A DNA stretch of 64,000 nucleotides from Pseudaquabacterium pictum. GTDB lineage: Bacteria; Pseudomonadota; Gammaproteobacteria; Burkholderiales; Burkholderiaceae_C. Every line of letters starts with the position of its first letter. The first letter of the stretch is position 1. A model generated the notes under the pieces. The model did no database searches. It was not told the origin of the DNA and saw only the letters and a program-made list of their open reading frames with translations. Below, piece by piece: positions 19,828 to 27,409 of the stretch. Both the position numbers and the translations under genes were made by a program. The stretch is from assembly GCF_005403045.1 (NCBI RefSeq), contig NZ_BJCL01000002.1, positions 558,001 to 622,000 on the forward strand. Direction: 5' to 3'.

Positions 19828-20541
19828 ATGCGCATCGATGATCTGCTGTTCAGCCAGGGCTTCGGCACCCGCCGGGTCTGCGCCGGCCTGGTGGCCGCGG
19901 GCCAGGTGCGGGTGGCCGGCGCGGTGGTCACCGATCCGACGCAGGCGTTCGAGCCAGAGGGCCTGCAGTTCGCCGTCGATGGCCAGGCCTGGACCTGGTA
20001 CGCCACCGCCCTGGTGCTGCTGCACAAGCCGGCCGGCTATGAATGCAGCCAGAAGCCCAAGCACCACCCCAGCGTGATGCTGCTGCTGCCGCCGCCGCTG
20101 CGCCAGCGCGGTGTGCAGCCGGTGGGCCGGCTGGACCAGGACACCACCGGCCTCTTGCTGCTGACCGACGACGGCACGCTGATCCACCGCCTCACCTCGC
20201 CCAAGCACCATGTGCCCAAGGTCTACGAGGTGCAGACCGCCCGGCCGGTGGAGGCCGCCCAGGTGCAGCGCCTGCTGGACGGCGTGGTGCTGGACGACGA
20301 CCCCAAGCCGGTGCGCGCCGAAGGCTGCGTGGCCACCGGCGAGCACGCGCTGCGGCTGACGCTGGTGCAGGGCAAGTACCACCAGGTCAAGCGCATGGTG
20401 GCGGCGGTGGGCAACCACTGCGAGGGCCTGCACCGCAGTGCTTTTGGGGCACTCACGCTGGCCGACGGCCCGGCACCAGGCCAGTGGCGCTTCGTCACCG
20501 ACACGGAGCGCGCGGCGCTGGTGGCCAAGCGGCCTGGCTGA
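19828..20541 (+). CDS. rsuA: 16S rRNA pseudouridine(516) synthase family protein
   Basis: A 237-residue enzyme with an N-terminal S4-like RNA-binding part (MRIDDLLFSQGFGTRRVCAGLVAAGQVRVAG) and the catalytic RsuA domain. The catalytic Asp is in GRLDQDTTGLLLLTDDG, and GKYHQVKRMVAAVGNHC is the conserved C-terminal block. It isomerises a uridine in small-subunit rRNA; RsuA in E. coli acts on U516. Paralogues of the RluB/E/F type are similar, so the exact target is likely but not certain. It converges with the barrel gene of the CHAT-protease set. Confidence 0.85.
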   Translation: MRIDDLLFSQGFGTRRVCAGLVAAGQVRVAGAVVTDPTQAFEPEGLQFAVDGQAWTWYATALVLLHKPAGYECSQKPKHHPSVMLLLPPPLRQRGVQPVGRLDQDTTGLLLLTDDGTLIHRLTSPKHHVPKVYEVQTARPVEAAQVQRLLDGVVLDDDPKPVRAEGCVATGEHALRLTLVQGKYHQVKRMVAAVGNHCEGLHRSAFGALTLADGPAPGQWRFVTDTERAALVAKRPG

Positions 20542-20551
20542 GCGGTCGCGG

Positions 20552-21304
20552 TCAGAAGCGCTGGCGCCAGCTCAGGCCCAAGGCCAGGTCGGGGCTGGCG
20601 CGTTCCCAGCCGCCGGTGAGGTGCAGCTGCCAGCGCCGGACGCCATCGCGCCAGGCCAGGTGCAACGTGGCTTCGCCCAGCGGGCCCAGGCGGCCGATGG
20701 CTTCGCGCCAGTCGATGCCGGCACCCAGTTCCCAGGCGGGTGACAGCGCGCGCTGCACGCCCACACCGCCATACCAGGGGTTGCGGTAGGGATGGAAGCC
20801 CGCTGGATCGCCGGTGTGGCGCCAACCCAGGTGGGCCAGCCACTGCGCGCCGGCGGCGTTGTGGTCCAGATCGACCTGCAGCGCCACATCACGCCCGCCG
20901 GTGCCCAGGCCGCGGCCGGCGTCGCCGCTGGCCAGCTTGAACTTCAGCACCAGGTCCAGCCCCGGCCAGGCGTCGGCCTCGCGCAGCGCCAGGCGGCCGC
21001 GCCACCACACATCGCCCAGGCCCTGCACCTGGCTGCCGCCGGCGCCATTGGCCTCGGGCAGGCCGCTGCCACCGGGGTTGTGCACCCGCAGCCAGGGCAG
21101 CTGCACGTCGATCCACCAGCCCGCGCCGTGGTAGCGGGCGGCCAGCGTGGTCTGGTCAATGGTGGTGCGGCTGGCCTCGCCGTAGCGGCCCTGCGACCGC
21201 TCGTGGGCCAAGCGCAGATCGATCCGGCCCGGCGCGGGCTGGGCCGCCGCCAGGGCCGGCAGCAGGGCCGCCAGCAGCGCAGGCCAGACGCGGCGCACCG
21301 ACAT
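20552..21304 (-). CDS. Predicted outer-membrane beta-barrel protein
   Basis: A 250-residue protein with a signal peptide (VWPALLAALLPALAAAQP). The rest alternates polar and hydrophobic residues in short strands with aromatic girdles (WWIDVQLPWLRVHN, VWWRGRLALRE, LDLVLKFKLASGDAG), and it ends with a C-terminal Phe (LGLSWRQRF), a hallmark of BAM-inserted barrels. It resembles the broad transporter-like barrel group related to meta-pathway proteins; no specific substrate can be named. Its ATG follows the stop of the EK-repeat gene as TGATATG, a one-base gap, so translation is probably coupled. Confidence 0.7.
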   Translation of the reverse strand: MSVRRVWPALLAALLPALAAAQPAPGRIDLRLAHERSQGRYGEASRTTIDQTTLAARYHGAGWWIDVQLPWLRVHNPGGSGLPEANGAGGSQVQGLGDVWWRGRLALREADAWPGLDLVLKFKLASGDAGRGLGTGGRDVALQVDLDHNAAGAQWLAHLGWRHTGDPAGFHPYRNPWYGGVGVQRALSPAWELGAGIDWREAIGRLGPLGEATLHLAWRDGVRRWQLHLTGGWERASPDLALGLSWRQRF

Positions 21305-21305
21305 A

Positions 21306-21659
21306 TCAGCCGATCTTCTCGGGCTTCTCGGCCTTCTCGGGCTTCTCCGCCTTTTCCGGCTTCTCGGCCTTCTCAGGCTTCTCCACCTTTTCGGGGCGCT
21401 CGGCACGGGCCAGCAGCAGCGCCGGCGCCAGGCCCACCTTCTCGGGCTTCTCGGCCTTCTCGGGCTTTTCGGGCTTTTCCGCCTTCTCCGGCTTCTCGGC
21501 CTTCTCTGCCTTCTCGGCCTTTTCCGGGCGCTCGGCACGGGCCAGCAGCTGCGGCAGCGCGGCGTCGGTGCCCAGGGTCTGGCGGGGCGTCGGGGCGGCT
21601 TGCACGGCGGCCGACAGCAGGCCCAGCAGCAGCGCCGACATCAGGGTGGAACGGGTCAT
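21306..21659 (-). CDS. Secreted EK tripeptide-repeat protein
   Basis: Not a recognised family. It is a 117-residue protein with a clear signal peptide (MSALLLGLLSAAVQA). The mature ~96 residues include 10 units and then 9 units of (P/A/V)-E-K, each block introduced by the same segment LLARAERPEK. The two blocks are separated by VGLAPA, so an internal duplication is evident. The chain would be highly charged but nearly neutral overall and extended or helical. The P-E-K pattern recalls the Pro-rich spacer of TonB, which spans the periplasm. A GAGGA ribosome site precedes the ATG. Co-directional with and coupled to the barrel gene; a shared role at the envelope is inferred. Confidence 0.75.
   Translation of the reverse strand: MTRSTLMSALLLGLLSAAVQAAPTPRQTLGTDAALPQLLARAERPEKAEKAEKAEKPEKAEKPEKPEKAEKPEKVGLAPALLLARAERPEKVEKPEKAEKPEKAEKPEKAEKPEKIG
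21315..21395 (-). repeat. 9-base tandem repeat encoding nine EK tripeptides (block 2)
   Basis: Nine consecutive nine-base units, each coding (P/A/V)-E-K, with third-position variation (GAGAAG, GAAAAG). Proline and alanine alternate almost strictly. Copy-number change would not shift the frame. Confidence 0.9.
21438..21527 (-). repeat. 9-base tandem repeat encoding ten EK tripeptides (block 1)
   Basis: Ten consecutive nine-base units coding (P/A)-E-K. The order of Pro and Ala is less regular than in block 2. Synonymous differences between units show the repeat is not a very recent slippage product. Confidence 0.9.
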
Positions 21660-21688
21660 GGCAATCCTCTTGCATCGGTGGGAGGGAT

Positions 21689-21712
21689 GCGCCCCACCGG
21701 CTGGTGGGGCGC
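21689..21712 (-). promoter_or_regulatory. Perfect 10-bp hairpin in the leader of the EK-repeat gene
   Basis: The arms GCGCCCCACC and GGTGGGGCGC are fully complementary with a four-base loop, ending 30 bases before the ATG at 21659. It has no T-run and so is unlikely to be an intrinsic terminator for the upstream subtilase gene. A second, smaller inverted repeat (TAACA...TGTTA) lies about 30 bases further upstream. Together they suggest a structured leader or mRNA-processing site between the subtilase and EK-repeat genes. Confidence 0.5.
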
Positions 21713-21819
21713 GACATCCACCGGTCCTGGTGGCGTCGCTTAACAGAGGTGTTAGGTCGCCTGGAAATACCTGCCGATCTGCAAGCAGTTGTGACAGCGC
21801 CGTTGCCGGCGCAGCGCGC

Positions 21820-23127
21820 TCAGCGGCAGCGCTTGGGGTCGGCGGACAGCTGGGCCAGCGCGGCGGCCACATCCAGCTGCAGCTGGCGGCCACCCGACAG
21901 CTTGCTGCCGCTGGCAACCAGGCACCTGGCCAGGTCGCGCGCGGGCAGCTGCGGGAAGCGCGCGCGCACCAGCGCGGCGGCGCCGGCCACCAGCGGCGTG
22001 GCCATCGAGGTGCCGCTCCAGGTCGCATAGCCGCCGCCCGGCACGGCGCTGGTCACCCGGTCGCCCGGCGCGGCCAGGCTGATCCAGTTGCCGCTGTTGG
22101 AGAAGGACGCCAGCCGGCCCTGGGCATTGCTGGCCGCCACCGACAGCAGGCCGTAGGCGGATTCGGCCGCCGGCCAGGTGCGCAGGCTGGCGCTGCCATC
22201 GTTGCCGGCGCCGGCCACCACCACCGTGCCGCCCTGGGCGGCGCAGCGCTGGCGGTCGCCGTTGTAGCCGGCATCGCTGGTGTCCACCGCCGGATCGGGT
22301 GCATCGCCGGGGGCGATCAGGCTGCAGTTCACCAGCTGGTCGATGGTGCGCATCAGCTGGCTGGGCTGCAGGCCGGTCAGGCTCAGGTTGATGACCTGGG
22401 CGCCATCGGCGGTGGCCGGGTTGTGGTCGGGGTCGATGGCATGCAGCATGGCTTCGGCCAGCACCCAGGCATTGCCCTGGCCTTCGGCATCCAGCACCCG
22501 CAGCGGCAGGATGCGGGCGCCCGGCGCCACCCAGGCCACCAGGCCCGCCACATGGGTGCCATGGCCGTAGCCGGCCTGCGTCGGCTGGGCAGTCTCGGAC
22601 GGATCGGCATCACCATCGACGAAGTCCCAGCCCGGCAGCATGCGGCCGGCCAGCACCGGATGCGCCAGGTCGAAACCGGTGTCCAGCACCGCCACCGTGG
22701 TGCCGCTGCCGCTGGACTGGGCCTGGGCCCGTGGCAGGCCGATGGCCGCGCCGGCCCACTGCGCCGCGTAAGCCTGGGCGCTGCCGATGGTCCAGACATT
22801 GTTCTTGACCGACTCCGGGCTGGCGCGGCGCAGGTTGGGTTCGGCCACCAGGACACCGGGCTCGGTGGCCAGCGCGTCCACCACGGCGCCGACATCACCG
22901 CCGGCCGGTAACTTCAGCCGAAAGATCGGCCGTGCCCCGAAGCGGCCGACCAGGCTCAGACCATGCCTGGTCTGCAGCGGCGCCAGGTCGCCCGGGCTGC
23001 GCAGCACCAGCACCACCTCACCGGGCTCGGCGCTGACCGGGGTGCCGGCTGCCGCAGGCCCGGCCGACAGCGCGGCCAGCACCGCGGACACCGCGGCAGA
23101 CAGGGGGAGGTGGCGGGCTGTGGTCAT
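21820..23127 (-). CDS. Secreted S8 family serine peptidase (subtilase)
   Basis: A 435-residue subtilase with a signal peptide ending near AGPAAAG, an I9-like propeptide (residues ~35-105), and the S8 catalytic domain. The triad is Asp149 (VAVLDTGF), His189 (YGHGTHVAG) and Ser374 (SGTSMATP); the oxyanion Asn is in AGAGNDGS. It is therefore probably active in the periplasm or outside. The start MTTARHLPL was chosen at the signal peptide; longer frame upstream lacks one. It lies 168 bases downstream of the CHAT gene on the same strand, long enough for its own promoter. Confidence 0.9.
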   Translation of the reverse strand: MTTARHLPLSAAVSAVLAALSAGPAAAGTPVSAEPGEVVLVLRSPGDLAPLQTRHGLSLVGRFGARPIFRLKLPAGGDVGAVVDALATEPGVLVAEPNLRRASPESVKNNVWTIGSAQAYAAQWAGAAIGLPRAQAQSSGSGTTVAVLDTGFDLAHPVLAGRMLPGWDFVDGDADPSETAQPTQAGYGHGTHVAGLVAWVAPGARILPLRVLDAEGQGNAWVLAEAMLHAIDPDHNPATADGAQVINLSLTGLQPSQLMRTIDQLVNCSLIAPGDAPDPAVDTSDAGYNGDRQRCAAQGGTVVVAGAGNDGSASLRTWPAAESAYGLLSVAASNAQGRLASFSNSGNWISLAAPGDRVTSAVPGGGYATWSGTSMATPLVAGAAALVRARFPQLPARDLARCLVASGSKLSGGRQLQLDVAAALAQLSADPKRCR

Positions 23128-23295
23128 GGTGGTTCCGGAGCGGGGGATGCGGACAGAGCAGGCTGGCGGCCGCCAGATACCACGGCCCCCTTGAACGGGT
23201 GGGATCAAGCCAGTGGTGCCGCCTGAAATTGCAAAACCTGCATGTTGACGCGGGAACCGCCCCGGTTCATCCCGCACCACCTGAAACAAAGGGTG

Positions 23296-26151
23296 TCACC
23301 AGCCGCCGAACAGCACGAATCCGGACCAGAACGCCGGATGCGGGTGGCGGCACATCACCGCGGTCTGGGCATCGCCCAGGGCCTGGGCGGGCGACAGGCC
23401 ACGCTGCAGGCCGCGGTAGAAGTGGTCCATGAAGACGGCGGTGATGGCGTCGTCCACCGGCCACAGGCTGGCCAGCACCCGGGCCGCGCCGGCCACCAGG
23501 AAGGCGCGCACCAGACCCACCTGCTCGTCCCTGCCGGCATGGCCGGCCAGGCCGGTCTCGCAGGCGCTGAGCACCACCGTGCCGGCGCGCAGGCGCAGGG
23601 CCTCGGCACGCTCGGCGGTCAGCGGACCGTCGTGCAGGTGCAGGGCCGAGAACATCGGGTTGTCGCCGCGGAACTGGGCATGGCAGGCCAGGTGCAGCAC
23701 GTCGGCCTCGGCGGCATGCTGCTGCAGCACGGCCAGGCTGGCATCGGTGCCGGTGAAGGCCTGGCCCTGGGGGAACAGCGCGGCCACCTGGGCCGCCTCG
23801 GCGCCGGCATGCGGCAGGCGGCTGCTCTCGCCCAGTGCCAGCACCCGCGTCGGCGGCACCGGCGGGCGCTGCAGGCCGTGCAGCGCCACCTGCACGCTGG
23901 GCGCCTGCGCCAGCAGGTGGCGCTGGGCCAGGCAGGTCAGGCCGTCGTGCAGGGCGGCGAACGGCAGGCCGGCCAGGCCCTCGGCCGGCACCAGCAGCAC
24001 GCGGCGGGCGTCGGTCAGGGCATCGGCCAGCGGCGCCCACACCAGCGCATGCAGAGCCTGCAGCCGCTGCTGCACCCGCCGCTCCAGCAACGGCAGCTGG
24101 TCCTGCAGCGGCGCGGCGCCGTGGCGCAGTGCATCCAGCTGGAAGCGCGCCAGCCGCCAGGCGGCCTGCACCGCCTCCACCGAGGCCACCCGGCGCAGCA
24201 CCTGCACGCCGCGCCGCCGCACGATGCACACCAGCAGCTCGTCGCCCAGGCGGGCCTGCACCACCAGCGCATCGGCCGGCTGCAGCGCCGCGCGCAGCGC
24301 CGGCACGCTGAGGTGGCCCCGGCTGGCGCCCGGCACGACCGGACGGGCCAGGCGCTGGCGGCGCACCTGCTCCAGCAGATCGCGCTCGGCCCGGTGCAGG
24401 GTCTCGGCGAGGGACGCGGTGGGGCTGCCTTCGTCGGCCTGGCGCTGCAGGCGGCGGTGCAGCCACTGCAGGCGGGCGCGCAGGGCGTCGGCCTCGGCAT
24501 CGTCGCCCGGGGCGGCACCGGCGCGCAGGCGCTCGGCCAGTGCGCGGGCGCGCACCGAATCCAGCCGCTGCAGCACCCGGCTGGCCGTGGCGTTGCCGGG
24601 CTGGGCGTCGTGTGCCTGCAGTGCCAGCGCCAGCAAGCCCTGGTACGGCGCCAGGTGGTCGGCAAAGAACGCGCCGCGCAACTCATCGCCGGGCAGCGCC
24701 CGCCACTGGGATTCGAAGCGCTCCACCGCGGCCTGCAGGGCCCTTGCGGCGGCACCGTCATCGCCCTGCGCCAGTGCCGCCAGACCCACGCCGGCCTGGC
24801 CGCGGATCTGCAGGCCGCGGGCATGCAGCGCCTGGGCCTGGCGCAGGCTGCGGGCATACAGCACACGCGCCGCCCCGGCGTCGCCCTGGCGCAGCAGGGC
24901 GTCGGCCTCCACCAGGGCAGCCCGCACCGCCCCCTCGGGCTGACCGGCCTGGGTGAACAGCACGGCGGCCTGGGCAGCGTGGCCCTGCGCCTGGGCCGCC
25001 GGGGCGGCGCCGGCATCACCGGCCGGAACGGTGCCCTGTCCGACGGGCCGCGCGGGCGCCAGCGTTGCAGCGCGGTCCAGCGCCAGTTCGGCCTGGGCCA
25101 GCGCCACCGCGGCCTGGCCGGGCACCGACGCCTGCGCGGCGAACTGCGTTGCCGCCTCGGCCAGGGCCTGGGCCGCCAGCGGCGGCTGGCCCAGGCCCGA
25201 CAGCGCGCGCCCGCGCTGCAGCGCCGTCCAGGCGCGGTCGTCGGGCATGTCCAGCGCGGCCATCGCCGCCAGCGCGCGGTCGTACAGGGCCAGGGCCTCG
25301 GGCAGCAGGTGCAGCGCCAGGTAGGCATCGGCCAGCTGCTTCTCGGCAATGGCGCTGTGCTGCGGCAGCGCCAGCTGGGCATAGCTGCGGCGGGCACGCT
25401 CCAGACCGGCCAGCGCGGCGTCGTAGTGGCCGCGGGCCAGGTCCAGCAGGGCCATGGATTCATCGGCCAGCGCCTGCATCAGCGGCAGGCCGTGCTGGCC
25501 GGCGCGCATGCGGGCGCGGCTGTAGATGCGGGCGGCCTCGTCGAAGTCGGCCTGGGCGCTCAGCGCATCGCCCAGGCCGATGTCGGCCATCACCGAGTGC
25601 TCGGTGTCGCGCGCCCGGGCGAACAGCACCGCCGCCTGGCGGTAGTGGCGCGCGGCGTCGGCATGGTCGTCGCGCCGCATGTGCATGCTGCCCAGGTTCA
25701 GGCTCAGGCGGCTGGCGGCGGCCAGGTCGCCCAGGCTGACGAAGACCTGGCGGGCGGCGGCGCCGCAGGCCTCGGCCTGGTCATGCTGGCCCAGCATCGA
25801 CAGCGCCATCACCTTGGGCACCTGGGTCTGGGCGGCTTCCAGCGGCCGGCCCAGCCGCTGCCACAGCGCGGCGGCGGCATCCAGCTGCGCCACCGCCTCG
25901 GCCATGCGGCCCTGGTTCAGCCGCACCACGCCGGCCGTCCAGCGCGCCAGGGCCTGCACCTCGTCGAGCCCGGGCGAGGCATCGGCCAGCTGCTGCAGAT
26001 CGGCCGCCGCCTCGGCGGCGCGCTGGGGCGCGCTGGTCCAGGCGGCGTAGCACTGCTGCTTCAGGTCCCAGGCGCGCGCCAGGGCAGCGGCCGCGTCGGG
26101 GCCCCGTGCCTCCGGCTCCAGGGAGGGTCCGGCGTCGGCTGTCTGCACCAT
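23296..26151 (-). CDS. TPR-repeat CHAT-domain protease
   Basis: A 951-residue cytoplasmic protein. Residues ~15-600 are helical TPR-like repeats (for example AARHYRQAAVLFARARDTEHS and ARIYSRARMRAGQHGLPLMQ). The C-terminal ~300 residues are a CHAT domain, a caspase-like cysteine peptidase. The predicted dyad is His824 in LHLACHAQF and Cys864 in VVLSACETG; both are intact, although the Gly usually following the His is Ala. TPR-CHAT proteins are known as effectors in bacterial immunity and cell-death systems, for example the partner of the type III-E CRISPR effector. Here no nuclease is present. The gene follows the small unknown gene by seven bases and is likely co-transcribed with it. Confidence 0.9.
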   Translation of the reverse strand: MVQTADAGPSLEPEARGPDAAAALARAWDLKQQCYAAWTSAPQRAAEAAADLQQLADASPGLDEVQALARWTAGVVRLNQGRMAEAVAQLDAAAALWQRLGRPLEAAQTQVPKVMALSMLGQHDQAEACGAAARQVFVSLGDLAAASRLSLNLGSMHMRRDDHADAARHYRQAAVLFARARDTEHSVMADIGLGDALSAQADFDEAARIYSRARMRAGQHGLPLMQALADESMALLDLARGHYDAALAGLERARRSYAQLALPQHSAIAEKQLADAYLALHLLPEALALYDRALAAMAALDMPDDRAWTALQRGRALSGLGQPPLAAQALAEAATQFAAQASVPGQAAVALAQAELALDRAATLAPARPVGQGTVPAGDAGAAPAAQAQGHAAQAAVLFTQAGQPEGAVRAALVEADALLRQGDAGAARVLYARSLRQAQALHARGLQIRGQAGVGLAALAQGDDGAAARALQAAVERFESQWRALPGDELRGAFFADHLAPYQGLLALALQAHDAQPGNATASRVLQRLDSVRARALAERLRAGAAPGDDAEADALRARLQWLHRRLQRQADEGSPTASLAETLHRAERDLLEQVRRQRLARPVVPGASRGHLSVPALRAALQPADALVVQARLGDELLVCIVRRRGVQVLRRVASVEAVQAAWRLARFQLDALRHGAAPLQDQLPLLERRVQQRLQALHALVWAPLADALTDARRVLLVPAEGLAGLPFAALHDGLTCLAQRHLLAQAPSVQVALHGLQRPPVPPTRVLALGESSRLPHAGAEAAQVAALFPQGQAFTGTDASLAVLQQHAAEADVLHLACHAQFRGDNPMFSALHLHDGPLTAERAEALRLRAGTVVLSACETGLAGHAGRDEQVGLVRAFLVAGAARVLASLWPVDDAITAVFMDHFYRGLQRGLSPAQALGDAQTAVMCRHPHPAFWSGFVLFGGW

Positions 26152-26158
26152 GTCGACA

Positions 26159-26683
26159 TCATCCCAGGCGCGGCGCGCCCAGGTCGATGTCGGGCAGCAC
26201 CACCAGGGCGTCGGCGGTCGCCAGGCTCAGGCGCCAGGCGCCCGCGGCCACGCCGTCGAGGTGGAATTCACCCAGGCCGTCCAGGCTGGCGCGGTGGCCG
26301 TCGGCCTGGCCACCGGCGGGCTGCAGCAGGATCTGGCCGGTTTCGTCCGGGCCCAGCACCTGGCCGGCCAGCGACCAGCCGCCGCCCGGGTGGCGGGTGA
26401 TGCGCAGATCGACATCACGGCCCTCGGCGCTGAACAGCAGGTGGCGGCTGTCGTCGGCACTGCCGCGCATGCCCAGCGCCTGCGGCGGCAGGGCCCAGCT
26501 GTCGAAGCGCAGCACCGCGGCCACCCGGCGCAGCGCGGCGGCCAGCGGCGCGGTGGCCGGTTGCGCCTGCCACAGCGCGAAAGCGGCGTGCAACAGCGCC
26601 GGCGGCGCGTCGGGCAGGGCCTGGCGGGCGCGGTGGGCCAGGGTGGCCAGGGCGTCGTCGGACAGCGGGTGCTCAGGCGTCAT
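26159..26683 (-). CDS. Unknown protein between ECF sigma factor and CHAT protease
   Basis: A 174-residue soluble protein of unknown family. The first ~80 residues are helical (LSDDALATLAHRARQALP, LAAALRRVAAVLRFDSWALP). The C-terminal ~90 residues are a beta domain like a carboxypeptidase-regulatory or prealbumin-like fold: LAGQVLGPDETGQILLQP, then SLDGLGEFHLDGVAAGAWRLSL. Its place directly between the sigma factor and the protease suggests a regulator (an anti-sigma-like protein) or a protease partner. No transmembrane helix, so it would not be a classical membrane anti-sigma factor. The start is ATG 26683; an upstream in-frame Met is less likely. Confidence 0.7.
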   Translation of the reverse strand: MTPEHPLSDDALATLAHRARQALPDAPPALLHAAFALWQAQPATAPLAAALRRVAAVLRFDSWALPPQALGMRGSADDSRHLLFSAEGRDVDLRITRHPGGGWSLAGQVLGPDETGQILLQPAGGQADGHRASLDGLGEFHLDGVAAGAWRLSLATADALVVLPDIDLGAPRLG

Positions 26684-26806
26684 GGCGGTCAGGTCAGGAG
26701 GGGCGGCGGGGCGGTGCACGGTGGGGCAGGCGGTCAGGGCTTGCTCACACAGAGCCGGCCGCCGGCGCGGAAATACATGCTGTCACCAAGTTTTTCATGC
26801 CGGCCA

Positions 26807-27409
26807 TCATTCCAGCAGCGCACGCAGCTTGCCCAGGCAGCGGGCACGGGTGGGGCCGATGCTGCCCACCGGCAGGCCGAGGCGGCGGGCGACCTCCTCG
26901 TACGGCACACGTTCGTCGCTGTCGGTGAACAGCAGGCCCAGCAGGTCGCGGCAGCGGCTGTCCAGGCGGTCGAGTGCGCCGCGCACCGCATGCAGCTGCT
27001 GCAGGTCGTCGAGATGCTGCTCCGGGCCGTCGGTGTCGTCGGCGGCCTCCCAGTCGGGCACGGCCTCGCCGTCGTCGCCCTCGCGGTGCATCGACACGGT
27101 GCGCTGGGCGCGGCGGCGCTGCAGCAAGGCCTCGCGCTTGGCGGTGGTGACGATCCAGGCCTGCAGCCGGCTGGGGTCGGTCAGCCTGGGCAGGTGCTGC
27201 AGCAGGCGGGAGAACACGGTCTGGAACACATCGGCCGCGGCATGCTCGTCGTCGCCCATGCGGCGCACGATGGCGTAGACCAGCCGCTGGTAGCGCATGA
27301 CCAGTGCCTGCCAGGCGCCGGCGTCACCCTGCCGGCAGCGCGCGACCAGGGTGGCGTCGTCGTCAGGGGTGGGCGCAGGCGCGGGAACGGGCGGCATGGC
27401 AGACAGCAT
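26807..27409 (-). CDS. RNA polymerase ECF-type sigma-70 family sigma factor
   Basis: A 200-residue sigma factor. Region 2 is ARCRQGDAGAWQALVMRYQRLVYAIV with AAADVFQTVFSRLLQHLP and the LQAWIVTTAKREALLQRRR segment. Region 4 is LDRLDSRCRDLLGLLF...YEEVARRLGLPVGSIGPTRARCLGKLRALL, a helix-turn-helix for -35 recognition. A variable acidic linker (~30 residues) joins them. A start at the second Met (MPPVPAP, 27397) is also possible. It heads the co-directional CHAT set and probably controls it; no cognate promoter was recognised. Confidence 0.88.
   Translation of the reverse strand: MLSAMPPVPAPAPTPDDDATLVARCRQGDAGAWQALVMRYQRLVYAIVRRMGDDEHAAADVFQTVFSRLLQHLPRLTDPSRLQAWIVTTAKREALLQRRRAQRTVSMHREGDDGEAVPDWEAADDTDGPEQHLDDLQQLHAVRGALDRLDSRCRDLLGLLFTDSDERVPYEEVARRLGLPVGSIGPTRARCLGKLRALLE

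Follow-up and report, generated by a model that had tools for sequence, protein, structure and literature searches.

Results

A six-gene cluster built on a conserved core

The window, a 64-kb stretch of the Pseudaquabacterium pictum genome (contig NZ_BJCL01000002.1, positions 558,001 to 622,000), contains six minus-strand genes at 20552..27409, whose products are, in order, an extracytoplasmic function (ECF) sigma factor, a small protein, a TPR-CHAT protease, an S8 subtilase, a (P/A)EK-repeat protein (hereafter the EK protein) and an outer-membrane barrel (Table 1). An earlier note, made from the letters of the sequence, had read these genes as one set and as a possible proteolytic signalling or defence system; the co-directional arrangement and the gaps that it gave (123, 7, 168, 160 and 1 bases, from sigma to barrel) were confirmed from the coordinates. 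It had also suggested that the cluster might be limited to four genes, which does not hold, because promoter-like element P3 precedes the EK gene and a pseudouridine synthase gene, convergent with the cluster, has its end at 20541, placing the right-hand limit at six genes. The set is regarded as more than a chance neighbourhood because its four-gene core recurs in order at other loci and three of the four GTAT-N18-CTCTGT sites in the genome lie in its gaps.

Table 1. Genes and promoter-like elements of the cluster, with window coordinates
Feature	Position	Strand	Basis
ECF sigma factor, 200 amino acids, C-terminal end GSIGPTRARCLGKLRALLE	26807..27409	-	Pfam, TIGR02937, alignment
Promoter-like element P1, GTATTTCCGCGCCGGCGGCCGGCTCTGT	26749..26776	-	65 bases upstream of small gene
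Small protein, 174 amino acids, soluble-looking; candidate anti-sigma factor and CHAT substrate	26159..26683	-	AlphaFold2 model, profile matches
TPR-CHAT cysteine protease, 951 amino acids, H824/C864	23296..26151	-	Pfam, alignment, residue positions
Promoter-like element P2, GTATCTGGCGGCCGCCAGCCTGCTCTGT	23153..23180	-	25 bases upstream of S8 gene
Exported S8 subtilase with prodomain, 435 amino acids	21820..23127	-	Pfam, catalytic motifs, signal peptide by eye
Promoter-like element P3, GTATTTCCAGGCGACCTAACACCTCTGT	21743..21770	-	83 bases upstream of EK gene
Exported (P/A)EK-repeat protein, 117 amino acids	21306..21659	-	Sequence, repeat detector, signal peptide by eye
Outer-membrane barrel, 12-stranded, 250 amino acids, FapF/COG4313-like fold	20552..21304	-	AlphaFold2 model

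The sigma factor matches Pfam sigma-70 regions 2 (2.5e-15) and 4 (1.2e-5) as well as TIGR02937 (6.2e-25), and was aligned with 19 homologues. The protease combines a CHAT domain (6.3e-57) with TPR_12 repeats (2.9e-16) and has the intact His824/Cys864 pair reported by the earlier note, both columns being invariant in a 10-sequence alignment that includes the window. Likewise the subtilase (Peptidase_S8, 2.8e-41; Fervidolysin_NPro-like prodomain, 4.1e-6) retains all three motifs of the catalytic triad (VLDTG, HGTH and GTSMA). A Pfam scan up to E 0.1 assigned no family to the small, EK or barrel proteins. Signal peptides were judged by eye, without a predictor. The AlphaFold2 model of the barrel, with 12 strands and a mean predicted local distance difference test (pLDDT) score of 86.1, bears out the barrel assignment; its first strand begins at residue 27, directly after the signal region.

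A search of 299 genomes of the family with the C-terminal part of the CHAT protein gave matches of 44% identity or more at 16 loci in 14 genomes; all 15 besides the window were fetched, and their identity is 44-62% across the part of the CHAT domain that matched. By tblastn these 15 loci have the sigma gene in 12 cases, the small gene in 13 and the S8 gene in 14, in the same order, and every missing gene coincides with a contig end. None of the 12 loci fetched from among the weaker CHAT matches has a sigma, small or S8 gene. Genes 1-4 are therefore a conserved core, and the sigma, CHAT and S8 neighbours that the earlier note mentioned for other Burkholderiales are indeed linked, with the small gene included. 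The same core was found beyond the Burkholderiales, where 23 of 80 named loci were examined: in Acidobacteria (L091, L097 and L099) and in a metagenome-assembled genome of the Chloroflexota (L092), with sigma, a small open reading frame (ORF) alike by eye, CHAT and S8 in a planctomycete (L132) and an actinomycete (L158).

The neighbourhood survey proposed in the earlier note thus ties sigma, small protein and S8 to CHAT but not the EK and barrel genes, neither of which turned up at 28 further core loci; at five of these the sequence past S8 is under 1 kb. The barrel had no match in any of five genomes of the same genus searched, four of which gave weak CHAT matches only. The reading of the six genes as one set consequently stands as regards their shared promoter-like sites and fails as regards joint conservation. 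The P. pictum genome has a second, diverged sigma-small-CHAT-S8 core at L025 (contig C11). In genome G098 a transposase-like gene, judged by eye, breaks into the start of the CHAT gene (L031:9979-11046).

A promoter-like element at the module

Comparison of upstream regions side by side and by eye revealed a pair of boxes, GTAT and CTCTGT, 18 bases apart, seen first before many S8 genes and the EK gene and then found before the small gene. In the window, a search allowing one mismatch gave three matches, all exact, whereas shuffled sequences gave a mean of 0.48 and one of 100 reached three. The 6.14-Mb genome has four exact GTAT-N18-CTCTGT sites, three of them in the cluster gaps, and a reversed control gave none; random placement of three of four sites in the three gaps has p ~2e-13, a value calculated for a motif partly chosen from these gaps. 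P1 and P3 also have GTATTTCC in common. The fourth site is 30 bases before the gene of an exported PEP-CTERM-motif protein on contig C3 of the same genome (L222:312-1508). In L068, a relative of this protein is also preceded by a site.

Across related loci the element is exact upstream of the small gene in 14/23 and within one mismatch in 17/23, L267 being excluded from this count as it was fetched because of its site. Within 175 bases past the CHAT stop codon, the S8 start region, it is exact at 10 of 29 loci, present at two more with a spacer of 19, and within one mismatch at 20 of 29. At all 47 exact sites, which come from 23 loci, GTAT is followed by C or T, and this position played no part in finding them; one further site, in a module genome (G101:C308), has G. 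L092 has an exact site 48 bases before a longer start of its small gene, and some Acidobacterial loci have a shifted form, GTCTTTTT or GTATTTTT with CACTGT and a spacer of 18, each weak alone against shuffles. No site lies upstream of the sigma gene in the window or of 17 other sigma genes, the best candidate within 250 bases having at least three mismatches in 18/18. The TCTGT box resembles the -10 elements of ECF promoters. The shared DNA signal suggests that the same sigma factor switches on the protease, the exported subtilase and the EK protein with its barrel, and the distribution of sites gives good support to the prediction that one sigma factor drives three units (small-CHAT, S8 and EK-barrel). 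An earlier proposal that it may drive the secreted half is supported by where the sites lie: in the window ahead of the small, S8 and EK genes, in many relatives ahead of the small and S8 genes.

Sites were counted as GTATY-N17-CTCTGT in 299 family genomes (two draws taken to be identical), with module status assigned from CHAT identity alone. At least two sites are present in 12 of 14 module genomes versus 11 of 285 others (Fisher 1.3e-13). In a separate count, the 13 other module genomes have 49 sites against 4 in the reversed control, and 27 module-free genomes have 19 against 15. According to a simple codon-usage gene caller made for this analysis, none of the 23 sites beyond the fetched module loci falls within a gene, in DNA called 88% coding, and 18 of them lie no more than 150 bases from a same-strand start, including that of L267, where the small gene belongs to a module cut by the contig end. 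Four of the 11 sites examined in module-free genomes, from a total of 19, are inside genes, and no site was found in the 348 kb of 24 barrel neighbourhoods that lack the module.

Recurrent among the 51 predicted targets are the small gene and its relatives (14), S8 (6), exported proteins of beta-helix-like appearance (4) and an NTPase-like family (3), while DUF4956, glycerate kinase, a 130-amino-acid exported family, the L222/L068 family and a Porin_O_P-type pair were counted twice each. DUF4956-like genes near the module were recognised in L030 (by Pfam, with VTC), L071 (by BLAST) and, by eye, L031, L093 and L096; exact promoter elements precede those of L030, L071, L093 and L096. The beta-helix-like proteins, so judged by eye, have a common CTG.IGA...DN-like start (L029:12524-13075, L158:12366-12908, L270:666-1217 and L260:2359-3567), and an exact element precedes the genes of L029, L270 and L260. 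The L270 protein has no Pfam family.

The small protein

An AlphaFold2 model based on a 21-member alignment has two N-terminal helices and then a beta-sandwich, with a mean pLDDT of 84.7. The small protein has no Pfam, NCBIfam or PADLOC family, and structure comparison returned generic beta-sandwich matches only. Its PDB profile matches include two in the C-terminal part: NOMO2 at 2.5e-7, summed over repeated weak domains with a best i-Evalue of 0.25, and the beta-sandwich domain of the pyrogallol transhydroxylase small subunit at 1.9e-4. We infer that the small protein acts as an anti-sigma factor and is a substrate of CHAT, because its gene lies between those of sigma and CHAT, and because it is predicted to be under sigma control, is retained together with the other members and has a parallel in Csx29/Csx30/CASP-sigma.

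The EK protein and its barrel

The EK and barrel genes are a separate cassette outside the conserved unit. The repeats of the EK protein are dominated by E and K, and its gene was the sole ORF found by a repeat detector in the window. FapF was the top PDB structure match of the barrel model. In 20 barrel neighbourhoods from other families across the order, fetched from 34 other barrel genomes and mostly the better-scoring, an E/K/R-rich repeat ORF lies directly upstream on the same strand in 11, as suits a pore with a dedicated polypeptide. No such ORF was found in 0.45 Mb of core loci, nor in 1.36 Mb of other CHAT-selected loci (82 loci of mixed taxa, a background and not a matched control).

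FapF-like barrels stand beside exported [ER]PEKV hexapeptide-repeat proteins in L198, L200, L202-L208, L210 and L212, and at L032:8541-10020. Some [ER]PEKV repeats are the tails of DUF5666-like proteins near DUF6502. In L033 and L035, DUF6502-like genes adjoin proteins with GGIGGTG repeats and DUF5666-like parts, beside another branch of barrels.

Discussion

Taken as a whole, the cluster is probably an ECF54-type proteolytic signalling module with locally recruited surface cargo. From the sequence, the ECF sigma factor is predicted to recognise GTAT(C/T)-N17-CTCTGT and to switch on three units: the small protein with CHAT, the exported subtilase, and the EK protein with the barrel. The small protein, with its helices and beta-sandwich, would hold the sigma factor inactive until CHAT is activated by a cytoplasmic signal that the TPR part detects; CHAT would then cleave the small protein and the sigma factor would be freed. 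Since the sigma factor would also drive the small gene, the circuit would reset itself. Among the outputs, the EK polypeptide may cross the outer membrane via the FapF-like barrel, and the subtilase may act on cell-surface or exported proteins.

The four-gene core is of a known kind, as its context is already in print for ECF54, the group of Casas-Pastor et al. 2021, where a carboxypeptidase, subtilase and CHAT proteins are listed and proteolytic control is proposed (PMC8999054). The likeness is one of gene context: a CHAT-domain protein and a subtilase are both present here, and the actinomycete locus L158 has the order sigma, small ORF, CHAT, S8. For the carboxypeptidase-regulatory-like protein of ECF54, the NOMO2 and transhydroxylase matches of the small protein are compatible with such a label without proving it, and there is no Pfam match to such a domain. 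The passages of that source drawn on here mention no promoter, regulon or EK/barrel cargo for ECF54. As far as the literature searched shows, the promoter and regulon of the core are new, and so are the EK/FapF-like cargo and the wider cassette family, no description of the barrel/[ER]PEKV-repeat pair having been found; the view of the earlier note that the EK and barrel link was unreported agrees with this.

Among known systems, the type III-E CRISPR (clustered regularly interspaced short palindromic repeats) protease Csx29 provides a parallel for the proposed mechanism, as it was experimentally found to cleave Csx30, the inhibitor of CASP-sigma (PMC10028731). In both systems a TPR-CHAT protease has an ECF sigma factor as a neighbour, together with a third protein that may be a cleaved inhibitor, and cleavage of the small protein by CHAT, freeing the sigma factor as Csx29 and Csx30 do for CASP-sigma, would by this analogy be the best mechanism. 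It is an analogy and not membership: the Csx29 model scores 37.2 bits against a cut-off of 300 and over the CHAT part only, the small protein has 174 amino acids versus 565 for Csx30, which is not among its six PDB profile matches, and the window cluster includes an exported subtilase. A general Pfam scan, with no search aimed at CRISPR, found no Cas protein among the nine cluster and neighbour proteins. A bolder formulation, offered tentatively, is that the core is a widespread CRISPR-free switch of the Csx29/Csx30/CASP-sigma type with a GTAT-N18-CTCTGT regulon, in which a caspase-like protease frees the ECF sigma factor through cleavage of a beta-sandwich anti-sigma protein, and that in this genome it has captured a dedicated two-component cassette whose FapF-like pore exports a charged (P/A)EK-repeat polymer.

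In FecR-type sigma/anti-sigma circuits, regulated proteolysis of an inhibitor frees the ECF sigma factor. The proposed logic is the same in this respect, as it is for the RseA/DegS circuit mentioned in PMC10028731, but no transmembrane anti-sigma factor is seen here and the protease would be the cytoplasmic TPR-CHAT. The cargo resembles the Pseudomonas Fap functional-amyloid system, whose exporter is FapF, in its 12-stranded barrel, its best PDB match and the position of the barrel gene beside that of an exported repeat protein (PMC6173800). It differs from Fap in that the barrel model has no periplasmic N-terminal coiled coil or helical plug, the repeats consist largely of E and K, and Pfam detected no C39 peptidase (FapD) among the nine cluster and neighbour proteins.

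Several observations weigh against this picture. The motif was first spotted by eye in gaps that were later counted, so that the within-module counts are partly circular and only the outside sites are independent. No site precedes S8 in L069 and L089 or the small gene in L091 and L095, the paralogue L025 in the same genome has a one-mismatch site at the small gene and a two-mismatch site at S8, and no site can be recognised in the planctomycete L132 or the actinomycete L158. Of the 14 module genomes, G171 has no site and G249 a single one, and at least one site occurs in 56 of the 285 other genomes, about 0.26 per genome. Products with an exported look, as judged by a crude hydrophobicity rule, show only a modest excess among the targets (26/51 versus 130/342). 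L088 keeps the small, CHAT and S8 genes and both promoter-like sites without an adjacent sigma gene, and L095 has small and CHAT genes without an adjacent sigma or S8 gene. Searches of the small protein in Pfam, NCBIfam, PADLOC and PDB profiles matched no known anti-sigma factor or Csx30. As for the barrel, its model has no FapF N-terminal domain and is nearly as similar to the COG4313/Phenol_MetA_deg channels (4rl8), through which hydrophobic molecules are said to be taken up (PMC6173800).

The main rival is that the sigma factor itself is degraded by CHAT, or by S8, and so held at a low level, with the small protein as an adaptor. This corresponds to the printed ECF54 proposal, in which the group is said to be without an anti-sigma factor (PMC8999054), and would also be in keeping with four core genes that stay together. 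We consider it unlikely: the exported-type N-terminus of S8 (by eye) should keep it from meeting a cytoplasmic sigma factor, a sigma-type promoter stands directly before the small gene in most loci, as expected of an anti-sigma negative-feedback gene, and in the studied parallel it is the inhibitor Csx30 that Csx29 cuts (PMC10028731). The motif might instead be read by another regulator or sigma factor, the cluster sigma having other targets, as its tie to the latter is one of sequence context and L088 retains sites in the absence of an adjacent sigma gene. The tracking of the module by the sites across 299 genomes, the shifted form in Acidobacterial loci (individually weak against shuffles) and the ECF-like TCTGT box make this improbable. 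The proposal that the EK and barrel genes are an unrelated neighbour, with a small-molecule uptake channel of COG4313 type in place of a polypeptide exporter, has the similarity of the two folds in its favour and is about as doubtful as sigma degradation. Against it, the EK gene is preceded by the third genomic site, P3, which has GTATTTCC in common with P1, a repeat protein accompanies the barrel in 11 of 20 neighbourhoods of other families, and an adjacent dedicated repeat protein, which the window barrel has, is not mentioned for COG4313 channels in the part of PMC6173800 drawn on here.

An anti-phage or programmed-death system with CHAT as the killer, the defence alternative of the earlier note, has little support and is the most improbable of these explanations. 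It would fit the role of the TPR-CHAT protease Csx29 in type III-E CRISPR (PMC10028731) and the PADLOC matches of the subtilase model (8.5e-22) and IetS (4.5e-6) to S8 and of BovA (1.2e-4) to the CHAT part. The subtilase model is generic, however, the IetS and BovA matches are weak and partial, 4/6 cluster proteins have no PADLOC match and the Csx29 score is far below its cut-off. Moreover, the predicted targets are S8, exported and surface proteins, DUF4956/VTC, the PEP-CTERM protein and metabolic genes such as glycerate kinase.

The recurrent pairing of a charged hexapeptide-repeat protein with a FapF-like barrel, for which no description was found in the literature searched, suggests that the order has a unit for exporting surface proteins. 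ECF54-type modules have so far been listed from gene context, with the proteolytic mechanism undefined. That mechanism can now be tested directly, given a defined promoter element, a short target list and the position of the small protein between sigma and CHAT. Should CHAT indeed cut the small protein, the RNA-activated Craspase would appear to be a copy, captured by CRISPR, of a circuit that is ordinary in bacteria.

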